A DNA stretch of 64,000 nt from Paenibacillus graminis (GTDB lineage Bacteria > Bacillota > Bacilli > Paenibacillales > Paenibacillaceae), in NCBI RefSeq assembly GCF_000758705.1, contig NZ_CP009287.1, positions 6,882,001 to 6,946,000 of the forward strand, written 5' to 3'. A program made the position numbers and the translations under genes. Below the pieces are notes generated by a model, which saw only the letters and a program-made list of their open reading frames with translations, made no database searches and was not told the origin of the DNA. Positions 9,226 through 14,933 of the stretch are shown here, piece by piece (position 1 is the stretch's first letter; each line of letters begins with the position of its first letter).

Positions 9226-9833
9226 TCCACACTCTCCTTAATTATTTCTGCTGTATCTGGATTTCCGATGAAATGGACTTCTCCCGGCGACATCGACGCA
9301 ATTCTGGCCAGCGCATGGACAGCAATGCCTCTGGCTTCAAGCAGGCTCCGGCCTTCCTGAAAGCTTTTCTCGATCACACAGCCCACGCCCAGCAGCTCCG
9401 CTCCCGATTCGTTCACAATATCCGCCAGTCCTACCAGCGCTGCCCCCGTAGCCAGAAAGTCATCGACAATCAGCACTTTATCCCCCGGACCCAGGTACTT
9501 CTGCGAGATGCTGATCCGGTAATCCTCCTGACGGGTGAAGGAATGAACCGGTGCCGAATAGACGTCTTCGGCCTGGGTAACGGCTTTCTTTTTCTTGGCA
9601 TAAATGAACGGGACTCCCAGCGCAATTCCGGCTGCCATCGCGAACTGGATGCCGCTGGCTTCAACGGTCAGTACCTTGGTAACTGGCAGATGACCGAAGA
9701 TGCGCCCGAACTCCTCCCCAATTTTCAGCACAAGCTGCGTATCCACCTGATGATTCAAAAAAGAGTCTACCTTAAGCACCGTATCCGACAGAATGAGACC
9801 CTCTTCCCTTATGCGTTCCTCTAGAACTTTCAT
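9219..9833 (-). CDS. xpt: Xanthine phosphoribosyltransferase
   Basis: A 204-residue enzyme that converts xanthine and PRPP to XMP, a purine salvage step. The PRPP-binding signature VDDFLATG is at residues 123-130, and the N-terminus MKVLEERIREEGLIL is typical of Xpt. I chose the ATG at 9833: GGGAGGG lies about 10 bases upstream, while the longer open frame to 9938 runs through the terminator and aptamer and cannot be coding. First gene of the xpt-pbuX operon. Expression is set by the guanine and ykkC-type aptamers in the leader. Confidence 0.96.
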   Translation of the reverse strand: MKVLEERIREEGLILSDTVLKVDSFLNHQVDTQLVLKIGEEFGRIFGHLPVTKVLTVEASGIQFAMAAGIALGVPFIYAKKKKAVTQAEDVYSAPVHSFTRQEDYRISISQKYLGPGDKVLIVDDFLATGAALVGLADIVNESGAELLGVGCVIEKSFQEGRSLLEARGIAVHALARIASMSPGEVHFIGNPDTAEIIKESVEC

Positions 9834-9858
9834 GCTGCAAATACCCTCCCTTTTCAAC

Positions 9859-9903
9859 AAAAAAGACAGATCCCCTTGAGCGCTTCTCTCAAGTGAATCT
9901 GTC
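9859..9903 (-). terminator. Intrinsic terminator forming the expression platform of the tandem riboswitch
   Basis: Minus-strand GACAGATTCACTTGAG pairs with CTCAAGGGGATCTGTC (one mismatch, G-T pairs) and is followed by six T residues, just 26 bases ahead of the xpt ATG. Its 5' arm overlaps the 3' end of the second aptamer, so aptamer folding should block the terminator. Confidence 0.88.
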
Positions 9904-10008
9904 CTTCTGGGTTTTTGTCCCTTAGTGGTGTAACACATACCTGTGTCCGCATCGCTTGGACCAGCCTCTCTTATGCCATGGCATAAAAAAACGGAACCCT
10001 AGACGCGC
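9899..10008 (-). promoter_or_regulatory. ykkC-type aptamer, probably subtype 2b (PRPP riboswitch)
   Basis: Read on the minus strand the element contains the ykkC landmarks in order: GTCTAGGGTTCCG (about 10004-9992), CTGGTCC (about 9965-9959), a small ACACA/TGTGT hairpin, and AAGGGACAAAAACCC (about 9925-9911). The extra hairpin fits subtype 2 (ppGpp or PRPP) rather than the guanidine-I class. It lies directly 3' of a guanine aptamer, shares one terminator with it and precedes a PRPP-using enzyme, which together favour PRPP (2b). The aptamer 3' end overlaps the terminator 5' arm, consistent with an ON switch. Class ykkC: good; ligand: inference. Confidence 0.75.
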
Positions 10009-10014
10009 TATTTC

Positions 10015-10085
10015 ACTCATAGTCGGATAATTGCAATGGTTATCCGGTAGAAACTTATGGGCCTTATTCCCAAGATTATATGAGT
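10015..10085 (-). promoter_or_regulatory. Guanine riboswitch aptamer (purine class)
   Basis: Minus-strand sequence shows the full three-way junction: P1 arms ACTCATA/TATGAGT, then TATAATCTTGGGAATA, GGCCCATAAG, TTTCTACC, GGATAACC and GGTTATCC-type P3 arms, then GACTATGAGT. The specificity position is C (GACTA), so guanine/hypoxanthine rather than adenine is bound. Located about 180 bases ahead of xpt. Confidence 0.95.
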
Positions 10086-10117
10086 TATATGATAGTCTTT
10101 ATTAAAAACCTTCGTAT

Positions 10118-10146
10118 ATCTTACACGCTCGGTACGATCCATACAA
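10118..10146 (-). promoter_or_regulatory. Sigma-A-like promoter for the xpt-pbuX leader
   Basis: Minus strand: -35 TTGTAT (10146-10141), 17-bp spacer, -10 TAAGAT (10123-10118), ending about 33 bases before aptamer P1. Spacing is ideal, hexamers are moderate matches. Confidence 0.6.
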
Positions 10147-10326
10147 GCAAAATTTTAAATATTTTCAGGAGTTTTCCCTTCCTTTCATAGGAGTTTCATA
10201 AACAACACTAAAAAATTCTGTTAAACGAGCAATTTTTAGGTGCTTTTCCGGTGTTGTGCTTTCTTCGCCCCTCTATTAAAAGTATACTTAGTTTCTATTG
10301 ACAATAACTGAACAAAGGCGGTAGAC

Positions 10327-13300
10327 ATGAAAATAAAACATCAGGTTTGGTTAGCGGCATTGCTTTCGATACTGCTGTTTGGCTGCATGACTACTATATC
10401 CATCATGTATTTAGAAGGAATCCCGCAGGTTGTTGCGTTAGGGCTCGGCTTGGCTGGAATTGGATTATCTATTGTTCTGATCATCAGCGTACTCCGGAAT
10501 ATTACCCGCGGCATGGGCCGGATCCTGCAGATTTCCAGTAACATCTCTCAAGGCACCGTGGATACTTCTGTACAGACCCATGTAGCGCAGGATGAATTCG
10601 GACAGCTGGCCGCTTCCTTTCACGCTGTAGCGGTGGATCTGCACGACAAAACTGCAGAAGAGCGCCGCCTGAGACTGATGGCTGAAGAGCAGGCCTGGAT
10701 CAATGACCAGGTTTCCGCAATGACCCTGCTGCTTCAAGGCTCTTTGCAGATGCAGACTGCAGCACGCATCTTCATCAGCAGACTGGCGGAAGCGGTACGC
10801 GGCAGCTATGGCGCCTTTTATTTGAGACGCCAAGACAAGCTGGTCTTTACTGCCGGTTACGCCTTCGATGAGGCAGCAAGCCAGCGTGAACCTTTGATCC
10901 TCGGCAGCGGACTCGTTGGTCAATGCGCGCTCGATCAGAAAGTCATCCTGCTGCAGGATCTGCCTCAGAATTATATTAAAGTGCACTCCGGGTTAGGTGA
11001 TTCCCCGCCCTCCATGCTGATTTTGGTGCCTATCCTCTATGAGAATGACGTTGTCGCGGTAGTGGAGCTGGCGACGATGAATGAATTTTCGGCCAAAGAG
11101 CGCCAGCTGATTGAACGTACCGGCCAGAACATGGGCATCTTGATTAATACCCTGGCCAATGTGGCCAGGATCGAAGAGCTGCTGGGTGAAACCCAGCTGC
11201 AGAAGGAAGAGTTGGAGGCTCAGACCGAGGAACTCCTTGCACAGACTCAAGAGCTCGAAGCACAAACCGAAGAGCTGCGTTCGCATACCGAGCAACTGCA
11301 GGAACAGCGTGAAGAGCTGCATATGCAGGCGGATAACCTGCTGAGCTCCAACGCACAGCTCCAGCAGCAAATGGATCTCACCGAACAGCAGAAAGCAGAG
11401 ATTGAGGCTCAGGCGGATGAACTGAAATTGCAGGCTGACGAACTGCTCGCCCAGACGAATGAGCTTCAGCAGCAGAAGGAGGAGCTTCTGGCACAGACTG
11501 AAGAGCTGGAAGTTCAAACCGAAGAGCTGTCCACCTCCAATGAGCAGCTCCAGCTGCAGATCGAGCTGACCGAGCAACAGAAGATAGAGATCAAGGCCCA
11601 GGCCGAAGAGATCTTTAGGGCTGCCCAGTACAAATCCGAATTTCTCGCCAATGTGTCCCATGAGCTGCGCACACCGCTGAACAGCCTGCTGATTCTGTCA
11701 CAGATTCTCGCGGAGAACAAGGAAGGCAATCTGGGCACGAAGCAGCTCGAATATGTGCATACCATCTTCTCGGCAGGCAAGGACCTGCTGCAGCTGATCG
11801 ATGAGATTCTGGATTTGGCCAAGCTTGAAGTCGGTAAAATGACACCGGTGCTCGAATTGGTGTCATTGACTGACCTCAGCAGCCATCTGTACCGCCATTT
11901 CGAGCAGCAGGCCAAAAAGAAAGAGATCCGCTTCGAGGTCCACTGCGACAGCCGACTGCCGGAGCAGCTCCTGACCGATGGCCACAGGCTTCAGCAGATT
12001 ATGAATAATCTGTTGTCCAATGCGGTCAAATTCACAGCGGAGCACGGCTCTGTCTCCCTCTCGATCCGCACCAAGGGAGAAGACGTTATCCTGGCTGTCA
12101 GCGATACCGGAATCGGCATTCCCGCCGCCAAGCTGGAGAGCATATTCGAAGCTTTCCAGCAGGCCGACGGCACAACCAGCCGCAAATATGGGGGAACCGG
12201 CCTCGGCCTGACCATCTGCCGCGAGCTGGCGTCCTTGCTGAAAGGCCGGATCGAGGTGGATTCCGCGGAAGGCAAAGGCAGCACCTTCTCCCTGATTCTG
12301 CCGGTGGTGGAGCCGGGAGAAGATGCCCCCGCCCTGCCAAGCGCATCCTTTGAGGCAGCGGCAGGCGAAGAAACTGCCGCATCCAGCAATGCGGGAGCCG
12401 CTGTGGTCCCGGGTCCGGCCTTCCGTGAATCCTTCGTACCCGATATTTCCATCTCGAATCCCAAGCTGCTGCAATACGCGGAAATGGAGGATGACCGCGA
12501 TAATCTGCAGAATGGAGATACCCTGCTCCTCATTATTGAAGAGGATGCCGAGTTCGCAGGAATACTGCTGCGGCTGGCCCGAAGCAGAGGCTTCAAAGCC
12601 ATTGTCGCCTTCAAAGGTGACCAGGGTCTGGCCTTGGCTCATGCTTACAAGCCGGATGCCATCCTGCTGGATCTGCATTTGCCTGTGCTCGACGGCTGGG
12701 CGATCATCAGCCGCTTGAAAAGCCGCCCGGAGCTGCGGCATATTCCGGTGCATGTCATCTCTGCTACCGACCAGAACCAGCAGAGCCTTGCTATAGGAGC
12801 GCTCGCATTCTGGAAGAAACCAGGCGACCAGGCTGAACTGGAGGCCGCATTTCTGCAGATCGAGAGCTATATCCGGCGTCCGGTAAAAAGTCTGCTGATC
12901 GTCGAGGACGACCAGACCCTGCGAAGCAGCCTCGTAGAGTTCATTGCGCATCCGGATGTACACATTGTGGCCGTAGAGACTGGCAGGGAGGCCTTGGAAC
13001 AGCTGTCCAGCCATTATTTTGACTGCATGGTGCTGGATCTGGGCTTGTCGGATATCTCTGGCTTCGGCTTGCTGGAGCAGATCAAAACCAACCGCAAGCT
13101 GCAGACTCTGCCGGTCATCATCTACACGGGCAAGGATCTCAGTAAAAATGACGAGCAGCGGTTGCAGCATTACGCGCAAAGCATTGTAATCAAGAATGTG
13201 CGCTCAATGGAACGTCTGTACGACGAGACTGCGCTGTACCTGCACCGCAAGCATGCTGATCTGCCGCCGGACAAGCAGCGGCTGATTGAGAAACTGCATA

Positions 13301-13689
13301 ATCCGGAGGCAGCCTTTGCCGGGAAAAGCATTCTTCTTGTAGATGATGATATGCGTAATATTTTTGCATTATCCAGTGTTTTGGAAGGCTATAATATGGA
13401 TATCAGCTTTGCCCAGAACGGCCGGGAAGCCTTGGAGCATTTAGAAAGTCACCCCGGGGTAGAGCTTGTCTTTATGGATATTATGATGCCGGAAATGGAC
13501 GGATACGAGACGATGGAACGGATTCGCGCCATGCCGCAGTATGATCAGGTGGTCATCATTGCCCTGACGGCACGCGCCTTGGAGGAAGACCGGATTAAAT
13601 GCCTTCAGGCTGGCGCTTCAGACTATATTTCCAAACCGATTAATACTACACAGCTGGTCACGGTGCTCAAGATATGGTTAATTAAATAA
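10327..13689 (+). CDS. Hybrid histidine kinase with GAF, long coiled coil and three receiver domains
   Basis: A 1120-residue membrane kinase. Two membrane segments lie at about 8-30 and 35-57 with almost no extracellular loop, then HAMP (about 58-110), GAF (about 145-290), a long coiled coil (about 295-430) built from heptads of the AQTEELE type, HisKA with H445 (SHELRTPLN), HATPase (about 555-670) and three receivers with phospho-Asp at D782, D904 and D1051. The near absence of an outside sensor suggests that the GAF domain or HAMP senses a cytoplasmic signal. AAAGGCGG precedes the ATG by 5 bases. The REC-kinase encoded 53 bp downstream is a likely phosphorelay partner. The input is unknown. 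Confidence 0.9.
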   Translation: MKIKHQVWLAALLSILLFGCMTTISIMYLEGIPQVVALGLGLAGIGLSIVLIISVLRNITRGMGRILQISSNISQGTVDTSVQTHVAQDEFGQLAASFHAVAVDLHDKTAEERRLRLMAEEQAWINDQVSAMTLLLQGSLQMQTAARIFISRLAEAVRGSYGAFYLRRQDKLVFTAGYAFDEAASQREPLILGSGLVGQCALDQKVILLQDLPQNYIKVHSGLGDSPPSMLILVPILYENDVVAVVELATMNEFSAKERQLIERTGQNMGILINTLANVARIEELLGETQLQKEELEAQTEELLAQTQELEAQTEELRSHTEQLQEQREELHMQADNLLSSNAQLQQQMDLTEQQKAEIEAQADELKLQADELLAQTNELQQQKEELLAQTEELEVQTEELSTSNEQLQLQIELTEQQKIEIKAQAEEIFRAAQYKSEFLANVSHELRTPLNSLLILSQILAENKEGNLGTKQLEYVHTIFSAGKDLLQLIDEILDLAKLEVGKMTPVLELVSLTDLSSHLYRHFEQQAKKKEIRFEVHCDSRLPEQLLTDGHRLQQIMNNLLSNAVKFTAEHGSVSLSIRTKGEDVILAVSDTGIGIPAAKLESIFEAFQQADGTTSRKYGGTGLGLTICRELASLLKGRIEVDSAEGKGSTFSLILPVVEPGEDAPALPSASFEAAAGEETAASSNAGAAVVPGPAFRESFVPDISISNPKLLQYAEMEDDRDNLQNGDTLLLIIEEDAEFAGILLRLARSRGFKAIVAFKGDQGLALAHAYKPDAILLDLHLPVLDGWAIISRLKSRPELRHIPVHVISATDQNQQSLAIGALAFWKKPGDQAELEAAFLQIESYIRRPVKSLLIVEDDQTLRSSLVEFIAHPDVHIVAVETGREALEQLSSHYFDCMVLDLGLSDISGFGLLEQIKTNRKLQTLPVIIYTGKDLSKNDEQRLQHYAQSIVIKNVRSMERLYDETALYLHRKHADLPPDKQRLIEKLHNPEAAFAGKSILLVDDDMRNIFALSSVLEGYNMDISFAQNGREALEHLESHPGVELVFMDIMMPEMDGYETMERIRAMPQYDQVVIIALTARALEEDRIKCLQAGASDYISKPINTTQLVTVLKIWLIK

Positions 13690-13742
13690 TAGAACAGCAA
13701 CGATGCAATCATCAGGTTAATCTACTCGCCGTGGGAGGAACT

Positions 13743-14933
13743 ATGGAATACCCTGTTCATATTTTAATTGTCGATGACCGTCCGGATGAGTTTCTGTCCA
13801 TACAGGCACTTCTGGCCGGCTCATCTTATAAGCTAATCCACGCGAGTTCAGGCATGGAAGCTCTGAGATACCTGCTGGAGAATGAGTACGCGCTAATTAT
13901 TATGGATGTGCTTATGCCCGAAATGGACGGCTTTGAAACGGCAAAGCGTATCAAGATGCGCCGGAAGTCACGGGATATCCCGATCATTTTCTTAACGGCT
14001 CTCACCTCCGAACTGGAGAATCACATGATGGCCTATTCGGCTGGAGCGATTGACTACCTGACCAAACCGTATCACCCCCTTATTCTCAAGAGTAAGATCG
14101 ACGGGTTTGTCCGCCTCTATCAGACTAATAAAGAGCTGCAGATCAAGTCACAGGAACTGGAGACGGCTAACAGAATTCTGACCGAGCTTAAAGATACTGC
14201 CGAGGTGGCTCTGCGCATCAAAGGCGGCTTTCTGGCGATGATGAGCCACGAAATCCGCACACCGCTGAATGGCATCATTGCCATGTCCGATCTGCTGAGA
14301 ACCTCGGACCTCAGCAAGGATGACCAGGAAATGGCCGAGATTATCCATACCAGCGGACATGCTCTGGTATCTGTCATTAATCACATTCTGGACTTCACCA
14401 AAATCGAATCCGGCAAAATGGAGCTGGACTATGAGCTGTTCAACCTCCACTCCTGCCTTAAGGAAACGATTGATCTCTTCCGTGCGCTGGCCATGGAACG
14501 AGATCTGACTCTGGAAACCTATATGGATCCTGCGGTGCCGGTGCTGCTTGTAGGTGATCCCAACCGGCTGCGCCAGGTTTTGAACAACCTGATTGGCAAT
14601 GCTATCAAGTTCACCTCCACCGGAGGCGTAAAAATTAAGGTTCGGCTCAAAGCAGCCGTTGATCGCATGCTCACGCTGGAATTCATCGTCGAGGATACAG
14701 GCATTGGTATTCCGCAGGATAAAATGGGTTATTTATTTCAGCCCTTCACCCAGATTGGCAGCACCATCAGCCGCAAATTCGGCGGTACCGGACTTGGCCT
14801 GTCGATCTGCAAAATGCTGGTGGACCTCATGGGAGGCGAAATCTACGCCAAACCTGATGTCGGGCGAGGAGCCGTATTTGTCTTTACGGTTCAGGTTAGC
14901 GAGGGACACCCGGACTTACACGTTACCGGATGA
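13743..14933 (+). CDS. REC-HisKA-HATPase kinase (response regulator/sensor hybrid)
   Basis: A 396-residue soluble protein: receiver (1-125; DD at 11-12, D55 in IIMDVLMPEMDG, K in LTKPY), a short coiled coil, HisKA with H169 (SHEIRTPLNGI), and HATPase with NLIGNAIKF, DTGIGI and GTGLGLSI boxes. The start at 13743 has GGGAGGAAC immediately ahead; an ATG 12 bases upstream is not needed. It follows the three-receiver kinase on the same strand and is closed by a strong terminator. An N-terminal receiver on a kinase lets another kinase control its activity, so the two probably form one relay. No DNA-binding output domain is encoded nearby on this strand. Confidence 0.88.
   Translation: MEYPVHILIVDDRPDEFLSIQALLAGSSYKLIHASSGMEALRYLLENEYALIIMDVLMPEMDGFETAKRIKMRRKSRDIPIIFLTALTSELENHMMAYSAGAIDYLTKPYHPLILKSKIDGFVRLYQTNKELQIKSQELETANRILTELKDTAEVALRIKGGFLAMMSHEIRTPLNGIIAMSDLLRTSDLSKDDQEMAEIIHTSGHALVSVINHILDFTKIESGKMELDYELFNLHSCLKETIDLFRALAMERDLTLETYMDPAVPVLLVGDPNRLRQVLNNLIGNAIKFTSTGGVKIKVRLKAAVDRMLTLEFIVEDTGIGIPQDKMGYLFQPFTQIGSTISRKFGGTGLGLSICKMLVDLMGGEIYAKPDVGRGAVFVFTVQVSEGHPDLHVTG

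Follow-up and report, generated by a model that had tools for sequence, protein, structure and literature searches.

The leader of the xpt-pbuX operon is, with high probability, a guanine–PRPP tandem riboswitch in which two aptamers act through one shared expression platform. It lies on the minus strand of the window (the whole 64-kb stretch of DNA that was analysed) in a genome of 7.17 Mb. Read 5' to 3', it contains a guanine aptamer, a ykkC subtype-2 aptamer and an intrinsic terminator, and xpt-pbuX starts 25 nt 3' of the terminator (Table 1). Direct support exists for both aptamers, for their conservation, for the terminator fold and for mutually exclusive pairings in the sequence. The Xpt protein shares 95% identity with its Paenibacillus jilunlii counterpart, and 2fxv and 1y0b are its closest solved structures. 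Both genes exceeded their NCBIfam cut-offs (TIGR01744 and TIGR03173), consistent with the initial annotation, which had named xpt-pbuX as the target. A simple consensus scan of 9750-10350 returned no sigma-70 promoter, and no element was matched at 10146, where the feature first noted had been taken to end. Divergently from the leader run two large plus-strand ORFs (10327-13689 and 13731-14933), which by eye have the look of sensor-kinase/response-regulator hybrids.

Table 1. Elements of the xpt-pbuX leader and the genes behind it, in window coordinates.
Feature	Position	Strand	Support or remark
Guanine aptamer	10015..10085	-	RF00167; match including flanks 10103-10000
5' strand of P0 plus extension, UGAGUGAA, predicted anti-terminator	10012..10019	-	overlaps guanine P1 3' strand, 10019-10015
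ykkC subtype-2 aptamer, likely PRPP (2b) type, P0 to P0	9893..10016	-	R1 67.7 bits; RF00442 56.5 bits
ykkC P1 5' strand CGCGU (10007-10003) and core CUAGGGUUCCG (10002-9992)	9992..10007	-	
CUGGUCC (9964-9958); AAGCG with G48 = G9955 and C49 = C9954; P1 3' strand (9952-9948)	9948..9964	-	
CACC (9930-9927; C75-C78 equivalents); P3, GGG (9921-9919) with CCC (9911-9909)	9909..9930	-	
S-turn and putative PRPP-contact stretch: A95 = A9908, G96 = G9907, A101 = A9902, A103 = A9900, followed by one G (G9899; usually AGG) and A9898	9898..9908	-	
3' strand of extended P0, UUCACUUG	9890..9897	-	within terminator 5' arm
Intrinsic terminator, stem 9904-9865, U-tract 9864-9859	9859..9904	-	-21.2 kcal/mol, in free MFE fold
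xpt, xanthine phosphoribosyltransferase, 204 aa	9219..9833	-	TIGR01744 237 bits, cut-off 164.45
pbuX, xanthine permease, 434 aa	7921..9225	-	TIGR03173 527.6 bits, cut-off 414.15

The guanine aptamer was matched by the Rfam model RF00167 at 77.6 bits (gathering score 37; E 4.1e-12 with 64 kb searched), the only match above any Rfam gathering score in the 64-kb window. Its P1 helix (10085-10080 with 10020-10015) is also formed in the free MFE fold. The three-way junction has a core of the U22, U51 and C74 type, with C10022 as the C74 equivalent at the specificity position. Direct reading of the junction letters gave GUUUCUACC for J2/3 and GACUAU for J3/1. The complete guanine aptamer claimed by the initial annotation is borne out by this score and by C10022.

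The ykkC-family RNA claimed for the second position was likewise found. All the motifs quoted for it are present, namely CUAGGGUUCCG at 10002-9992, CUGGUCC at 9964-9958 and AAGGGACAAAAACCC at 9923-9909. RF00442 (Guanidine-I) matched at 10013-9902 with an E-value of 1.8e-9 in a search of 501 bases and 6.0e-9 over the whole genome, at a score of 56.5 bits that stays below the gathering score of 63. As a check by covariance search, Rfam upheld the guanine aptamer in full and the ykkC part by E-value, not by gathering score. No ykkC-type family besides RF00442 appeared among the Rfam matches listed for this part and, since RF00442 is by name the guanidine class, tandems were collected for a model of our own. 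A guanine-ykkC sequence pattern was run over 295 genomes of the family, 398 of the phylum and 398 of the class; because this pattern also matches by chance, as it does in a reversed control, each fetched locus was checked for the P3 hairpin and then sorted by its downstream gene. The family collection gave 45 places, corresponding to 30 loci of which 25 passed, and ten further places from the genus itself were added. The resulting covariance model, R1, was built from 29 tandem ykkC aptamers that precede non-xpt genes and includes no xpt leader.

R1 matched the ykkC RNA of the window at 67.7 bits (E 1.1e-16), its sole match up to E 10 in 64 kb, and it gave 61-94 bits on 12 intact xpt leaders. 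On the Guanidine-I RNA of the same genome it scored 34.8 bits, whereas RF00442 ranked the two RNAs in the opposite order (79 bits for the Guanidine-I RNA versus 56.5 bits for that of the window). R1 is not fully specific, as it also gave 37.7 and 29.0 bits on two ykkC-like RNAs of other kinds (L158 and L160) and 20.1 bits on L216. We regard it as extremely improbable that the resemblance is due to chance and that the stretch is merely an anti-terminator hairpin: the RF00442 score below gathering would fit such a reading, but the E-value from the independent model R1 goes against it, as does the presence of the tandem at xpt across Alicyclobacillus, Brevibacillus and Paenibacillus.

The subtype was read from single residues, numbered by means of the wild-type and G96A primers printed in PMC6031431. 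The residue table covers 128 distinct tandems (L126, L140 and L186 were dropped, having no anchor), of which two other-gene rows fall outside the tabulated groups and leave 126. A pyrimidine at position 49, CACC and G96 are present in 126/126 distinct tandems, positions 95-96 are AG or GG in the same 126, and the window has C49 (C9954) and G96 (G9907). Additionally, the ykkC P1 helix covaries, with five pairs that are each formed in 96-100% of the 128 tandems by at least two pair types, and the aptamer is closed by a P0 helix (GUGAA 10016-10012 with UUCAC 9897-9893). A pyrimidine at 49 and G96 are the marks printed for PRPP aptamers. By its marks the ykkC part is therefore likely to be a PRPP-type (2b) aptamer with PRPP as its presumed ligand, in line with the ykkC-2 type first proposed. 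Guanidine is disfavoured as ligand by C49, and the Guanidine-I marks A49 and CACGG are absent, as is a score at the gathering level of 63. The ppGpp class (ykkC 2a) is without G96, so that ppGpp is disfavoured by G9907.

The same genome holds further RNAs of both families. Its Guanidine-I riboswitch (L001 1501-1607; C1:2079501-2079607; RF00442, 79 bits) precedes two small transporter-like ORFs, by eye of the SMR type, the usual setting of a guanidine exporter. Of four further purine aptamers, three with changed J3/1 letters precede an amidohydrolase-like ORF (L005, by eye), an FAD-type ORF (L006, by eye) and a permease (L007), and the fourth (L009) has U at the specificity position; their ligands may not be guanine. 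A fifth (L008 1501-1603; C1:5710593-5710695) has an insertion near J3/1, lies upstream of a phosphoribosyltransferase (PF00156) and an ORF that is IMP dehydrogenase-like by eye, and resembles the guanine-II class, predicted to be ON switches, that PMC9295807 describes for Paenibacillus. The genome also encodes a second xanthine phosphoribosyltransferase, about 48% identical and in another context (L265 980-1594; C1:645697-646311), near which no Rfam match was found up to E 0.1; homologues at about 48% identity recur across the genus, including genomes without a tandem-controlled xpt copy.

A single terminator whose 5' arm overlaps the second aptamer had been claimed for the leader, and this is the arrangement found: the ykkC aptamer (9893-10016) ends, on its 3' side, within the 5' arm of the stem (9904-9865). 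The terminator call rests on the fold, since a simple consensus scan of 9750-10350 flagged none. The free MFE structure (-72.6 kcal/mol) combines guanine P1, ykkC P1, P2 and P3 and the terminator; forcing the leader into the anti-terminator gave -55.6 kcal/mol, so that a ligand or kinetic effects would be required to reach the ON state. The extended P0 helix (10019-10012 with 9897-9890) uses bases 10015-10019, which also belong to guanine P1, and bases 9890-9893 and 9897, which are also paired in the terminator. Because of these common bases, it excludes both. We also compared the switch-helix pairing of single leaders from the Xpt tree described below with that of shuffled sequences, which reached it in more than 5% of cases for 79/82 leaders with an intact tandem and for 29/30 with a decayed ykkC aptamer; the argument for the helix thus rests on its fixed position. 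Covariation of P0 was weak, kinship not being removed: at the fifth base pair, the observed pairing was reached by 131/2000 shuffles in decayed leaders and by 26/2000 in intact and decayed leaders together. Intact leaders alone gave no signal of P0 covariation.

These pairings are consistent with a switch in which, as polymerase leaves the ykkC domain, 10019-10012 would have two alternative partners, the 5' side of the guanine aptamer, with which it forms P1, and 9897-9890. Guanine binding would lock P1, leaving 9897-9890 free for the terminator and turning xpt-pbuX off. PRPP binding would stabilise P0, taking 10019-10015 from guanine P1 and holding the 5' arm of the terminator, such that transcription would continue despite guanine. 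From the exclusive helices, the predicted output is that xpt is off only with guanine high and PRPP low: xanthine uptake and the PRPP-spending conversion to XMP would stop only under ample guanine combined with scarce PRPP. We infer the identity of the second ligand (PRPP), the sign of both effects and that the switch operates in vivo. The logic proposed by the initial annotation, on if PRPP is high or guanine low, equals the IMPLY behaviour published for this class (PMC5912903).

One part of the presumed PRPP pocket departs from the published form. The T. mathranii crystal structure shows G104 in contact with the ribose of PRPP and G105 in contact with its beta-phosphate, and G104 is termed highly conserved (PMC6031431). 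The letters before P0 in the window read ACAG-A-UUCAC, so that one of the two Gs of A103 G104 G105 is gone, a point on which the first reading of the sequence had not remarked. The genus group of the residue table has 48 rows, one of which (L016) comes from another genus and has AGG; the remaining 47 are distinct genus-type RNAs. A single G was found in 46 of them, no G in one and AGG in none, and all 47 have a 2-nt UA insert in the 5' tail. AGG at 103-105 is present in 29/29 tabulated purE-, purD- and permease-linked aptamers and in 39/49 distinct xpt aptamers outside the genus type; the other ten have one G fewer and no insert, and comprise nine Brevibacillus-type RNAs and one from Paenibacillus (L064). 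The single-G pocket plus insert is a genus-specific variant that is absent from the literature searched. In one genus member (L023 1410-1525), ACAAAUUCAC stands in place of ACAGAUUCAC, with the opposite terminator arm changed to match, and both usual G contacts are gone from the pocket.

Within the 47 genus-type RNAs, per-column identity was 94-100% in the core pieces, and 84% in the P1b loop and 79% in the P2 loop when computed at the commonest loop lengths. The P1b hairpin takes 43 forms in 11 different lengths and P2 takes 24 forms, while the altered segments are near-invariant (99.4% in the 5' tail, 98.5% in the P3 loop plus tail). The variant is unlike decay, since the core is near-fixed while P1b and P2 vary. 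With one AGG G missing, the affinity for PRPP, or even the ligand, may differ. Conceivably, the lost G and the inserted 5'-tail bases together reshaped the pyrophosphate site, giving a derived form that has lost its preference for PRPP and senses another phosphorylated ribose, e.g. XMP, GMP or ppGpp. The clean division between the genus type and the purE-, purD- and permease-linked aptamers would agree with this, as would the near-invariance of the altered segments, which looks like selection and not decay, and a single change can switch this scaffold from PRPP to ppGpp (PMC6031431). However, G96, the published PRPP/ppGpp discriminator, is kept; the loss of the G without the insert in the nine Brevibacillus-type RNAs and L064 makes that loss look tolerable; and most xpt aptamers from outside the genus type still have AGG. 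We therefore consider such a change of ligand unlikely and retain PRPP as the likely ligand of the second aptamer. With the genus variant, it can be tested directly which share of the PRPP pocket is required.

Relatives of this leader include some in which the second aptamer has decayed. A tree of 116 Xpt proteins contained 82 rows with intact tandems, 30 with a guanine aptamer and no intact ykkC core, three without a recognisable guanine aptamer and one unassessed. These states require 13 changes on the tree, against a shuffled mean of about 29. The tree was made by a quick method and rooted on four chosen rows, and its branch support is modest; its starred branches force one change only and several long branches are unsure in place, so the number of ykkC losses is uncertain. 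Several losses are suggested by remnants that differ in size and sequence: short hairpins (L048, L252 and L253), mid-size remnants (L220, L055 and L251) and remnants with a body but no P1 core (L065-L069, L254, L255 and L257). Since the tandem is intact in the Alicyclobacillus-type outgroup rows and in 12 of the 13 Brevibacillus-type clade members (all but the decayed L081), it looks ancestral, given the chosen root. Of the 30 decayed leaders, R1 matched L056 (38.3 bits), L255 (25.8), L254 (19.2) and L257 (15.5), and found nothing up to E 10 in the other 26. For 24 of the 30, the P1 3' strand still pairs best with the site in the terminator arm, and local folds without the terminator 3' arm formed the helix in 9/9 decayed examples (ten were tried, one of them without the site pattern). 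The decayed leaders have lost the PRPP aptamer and kept the guanine aptamer and terminator, a state that is absent from the literature searched.

This decay raises the question of whether the ykkC domain of the window is itself a relic, a piece of structural filler on its way to loss in what would be a plain guanine off-switch. The 30 of 115 classified xpt leaders without an intact core are in keeping with that view, as are the smaller hairpin that replaces the ykkC domain in L048, L220 and L251-L253 and the persistence of the terminator-arm site as best partner in most decayed leaders. Yet the core is nearly invariant in the 47 genus-type RNAs while their loops differ in length and sequence, and R1 matches only 4/30 decayed leaders (15.5-38.3 bits) versus 61-94 bits for the 12 intact ones, which makes a relic very unlikely. 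If the window has a two-input tandem, as we favour, its decayed relatives would be natural deletion mutants, in which one input of a logic gate is lost and the switch still works. In the close relatives L040 (about 2720-2990) and L218, about 250 nt or more separate the terminator from xpt and hold copies of a TAAGTGGAAAAAGGGAACTTA-like repeat, where the window genome has a gap of 25 nt.

An absence of PurR might have explained a PRPP sensor made of RNA. This was rejected, since TIGR01743 scored above its cut-off in 391/398 class genomes and the window's own genome has PurR (match E 6.4e-110). Leaders were scanned with a PurBox consensus. In the same genome, the leaders of purE (L003, named by translation) and of an NCS2 permease (L007) each combine a purine aptamer with a PurBox-like pair, the cores lying 24 nt apart, and the consensus scan found no such pair in the xpt leader. 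Across the collection, the pair is present at 11/15 purE tandems and 5/12 permease tandems, and at 0/135 xpt tandem loci (97 distinct leaders); it occurred in 1/675 shuffled xpt upstream sequences. The leaders of the tree likewise had none (0/82 intact, 0/30 decayed). Among 12 other xpt leaders (L087, L088, L092, L094-L097 and L099-L103), it reached the threshold in L102 only and fell just below it in L092. PurR is reported to bind upstream of xpt-pbuX in B. subtilis (PMC8789054) and, as only one of the 12 other leaders gave a pair despite this, the sensitivity of the scan at xpt is doubtful. A strict trade of the PurBox for the PRPP aptamer does not hold in general, given that many purE tandems combine the two; it may apply at xpt. 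Judged from these scans, the pattern suggests that the PRPP signal at xpt may be read by RNA alone.

The initial annotation had called the placement on a salvage operon unusual. That claim holds against the published description, from which the placement departs, but not among genomes, where it is widespread. Outside the genus, 39 of the 50 checked tandems of the class sample lie before xpt and 11 before purE. In the phylum sample 24 loci were checked: the gene that follows is a Xan_ur_permease-family permease at 12 of them, purE at five, purD at five, a phosphorylase-superfamily member at one and a purB-like gene at one (L204); the last has no recognisable guanine aptamer and is nevertheless in the count. 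The nucleobase permease behind 12 of these 24 (within L121-L135) is another salvage-type target. Genes were sorted by tblastn to one reference each, with Pfam or NCBIfam confirming three permeases, one purE and two xpt, and the counts exclude L123, L136 and L142 (P3 pattern unmet) and L156 (contig end). The pattern used to re-check guanine aptamers was too narrow, with 32 misses, 31 of which carry the missed motif GTCTCTAC and one, L204, does not. All 100 genus genomes searched have an Xpt homologue, and 59 have an orthologue at 76% identity or more; among these the tandem is intact in 47 and decayed in 11, one (L249) being unassessable at a contig start, so that 47/58 assessable leaders are intact. 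The tandem on xpt spans Alicyclobacillus, Brevibacillus and Paenibacillus.

Salvage placement is thus unusual only against the literature. PMC5912903 describes purine-synthesis genes as 'commonly' associated with the tandem, codA too, and states further on that the tandem genes 'only include' steps up to IMP; an IMP-to-ATP account is repeated in PMC9481103. The words xpt and pbuX are absent from the main text of PMC5912903, and the accessible part of PMC9295807 reports guanine-I aptamers at Paenibacillus XPRTase genes with no mention of a PRPP partner. In a search that covered few subscription journals, we found no publication on a PRPP riboswitch on xpt or in Paenibacillus, and ykkC occurred together with xpt only where xpt stood within a reference list. 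The published rationale of the gate is that its genes stop at IMP, raising ATP but not GTP synthesis. The product of xpt-pbuX, XMP, leads to GMP, and elsewhere in the phylum the gate stands before nucleobase permeases. Such widespread placement argues for a simpler rule, in which the gate is carried by pathways that consume PRPP or take up purine bases.

A broader reading can be offered only tentatively, as we think it somewhat less probable than not. Early in the Paenibacillus-Brevibacillus-Alicyclobacillus group, the PRPP input to xpt would have been placed in RNA, not in a PurR operator; the two-input device would then have been cut back repeatedly, leaving a switch that responds to guanine alone and still uses the anti-terminator helix; and within the genus of the window the remaining PRPP aptamer would have been re-tuned, losing a ligand-contacting G and gaining two 5'-tail bases with a change in affinity or ligand. 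If true, this would provide a natural series from a two-input gate to a one-input switch, on a pathway to GMP that lies outside the published gate rationale (raise ATP, not GTP).

Finally, we compared the leader with known systems. The mechanism is known in kind; the salvage target, the pocket variant and the decay series are absent from the literature searched. In the published tandems (B. megaterium codA and T. mathranii; PMC5912903, PMC6031431), guanine-off and PRPP-on effects were measured (PMC5912903) and exclusive P0 and guanine P1 helices predicted (PMC6031431). The window shares with them the aptamer order and direct adjacency, one terminator overlapping the second aptamer, the exclusive P0 and guanine P1, and pyrimidine 49, CACC and G96. 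It differs from the published class in controlling the salvage operon xpt-pbuX, which leads to XMP, and the genus RNAs differ in their 2-nt 5'-tail insert and in having one G fewer before P0. The xpt-pbuX guanine riboswitch of B. subtilis (guanine-I, RF00167) has, as in the window, a guanine aptamer and terminator upstream of the genes; PRPP acts there via PurR (PMC8789054), whereas the window has a PRPP-type aptamer and no PurBox pair was found by the scan of its leader. With the Guanidine-I riboswitch (ykkC subtype 1, RF00442; found once elsewhere in the same genome, at L001) the second aptamer has its scaffold in common, but it is set apart by C49 instead of A, CACC instead of CACGG, the P0 helix and its tandem position.
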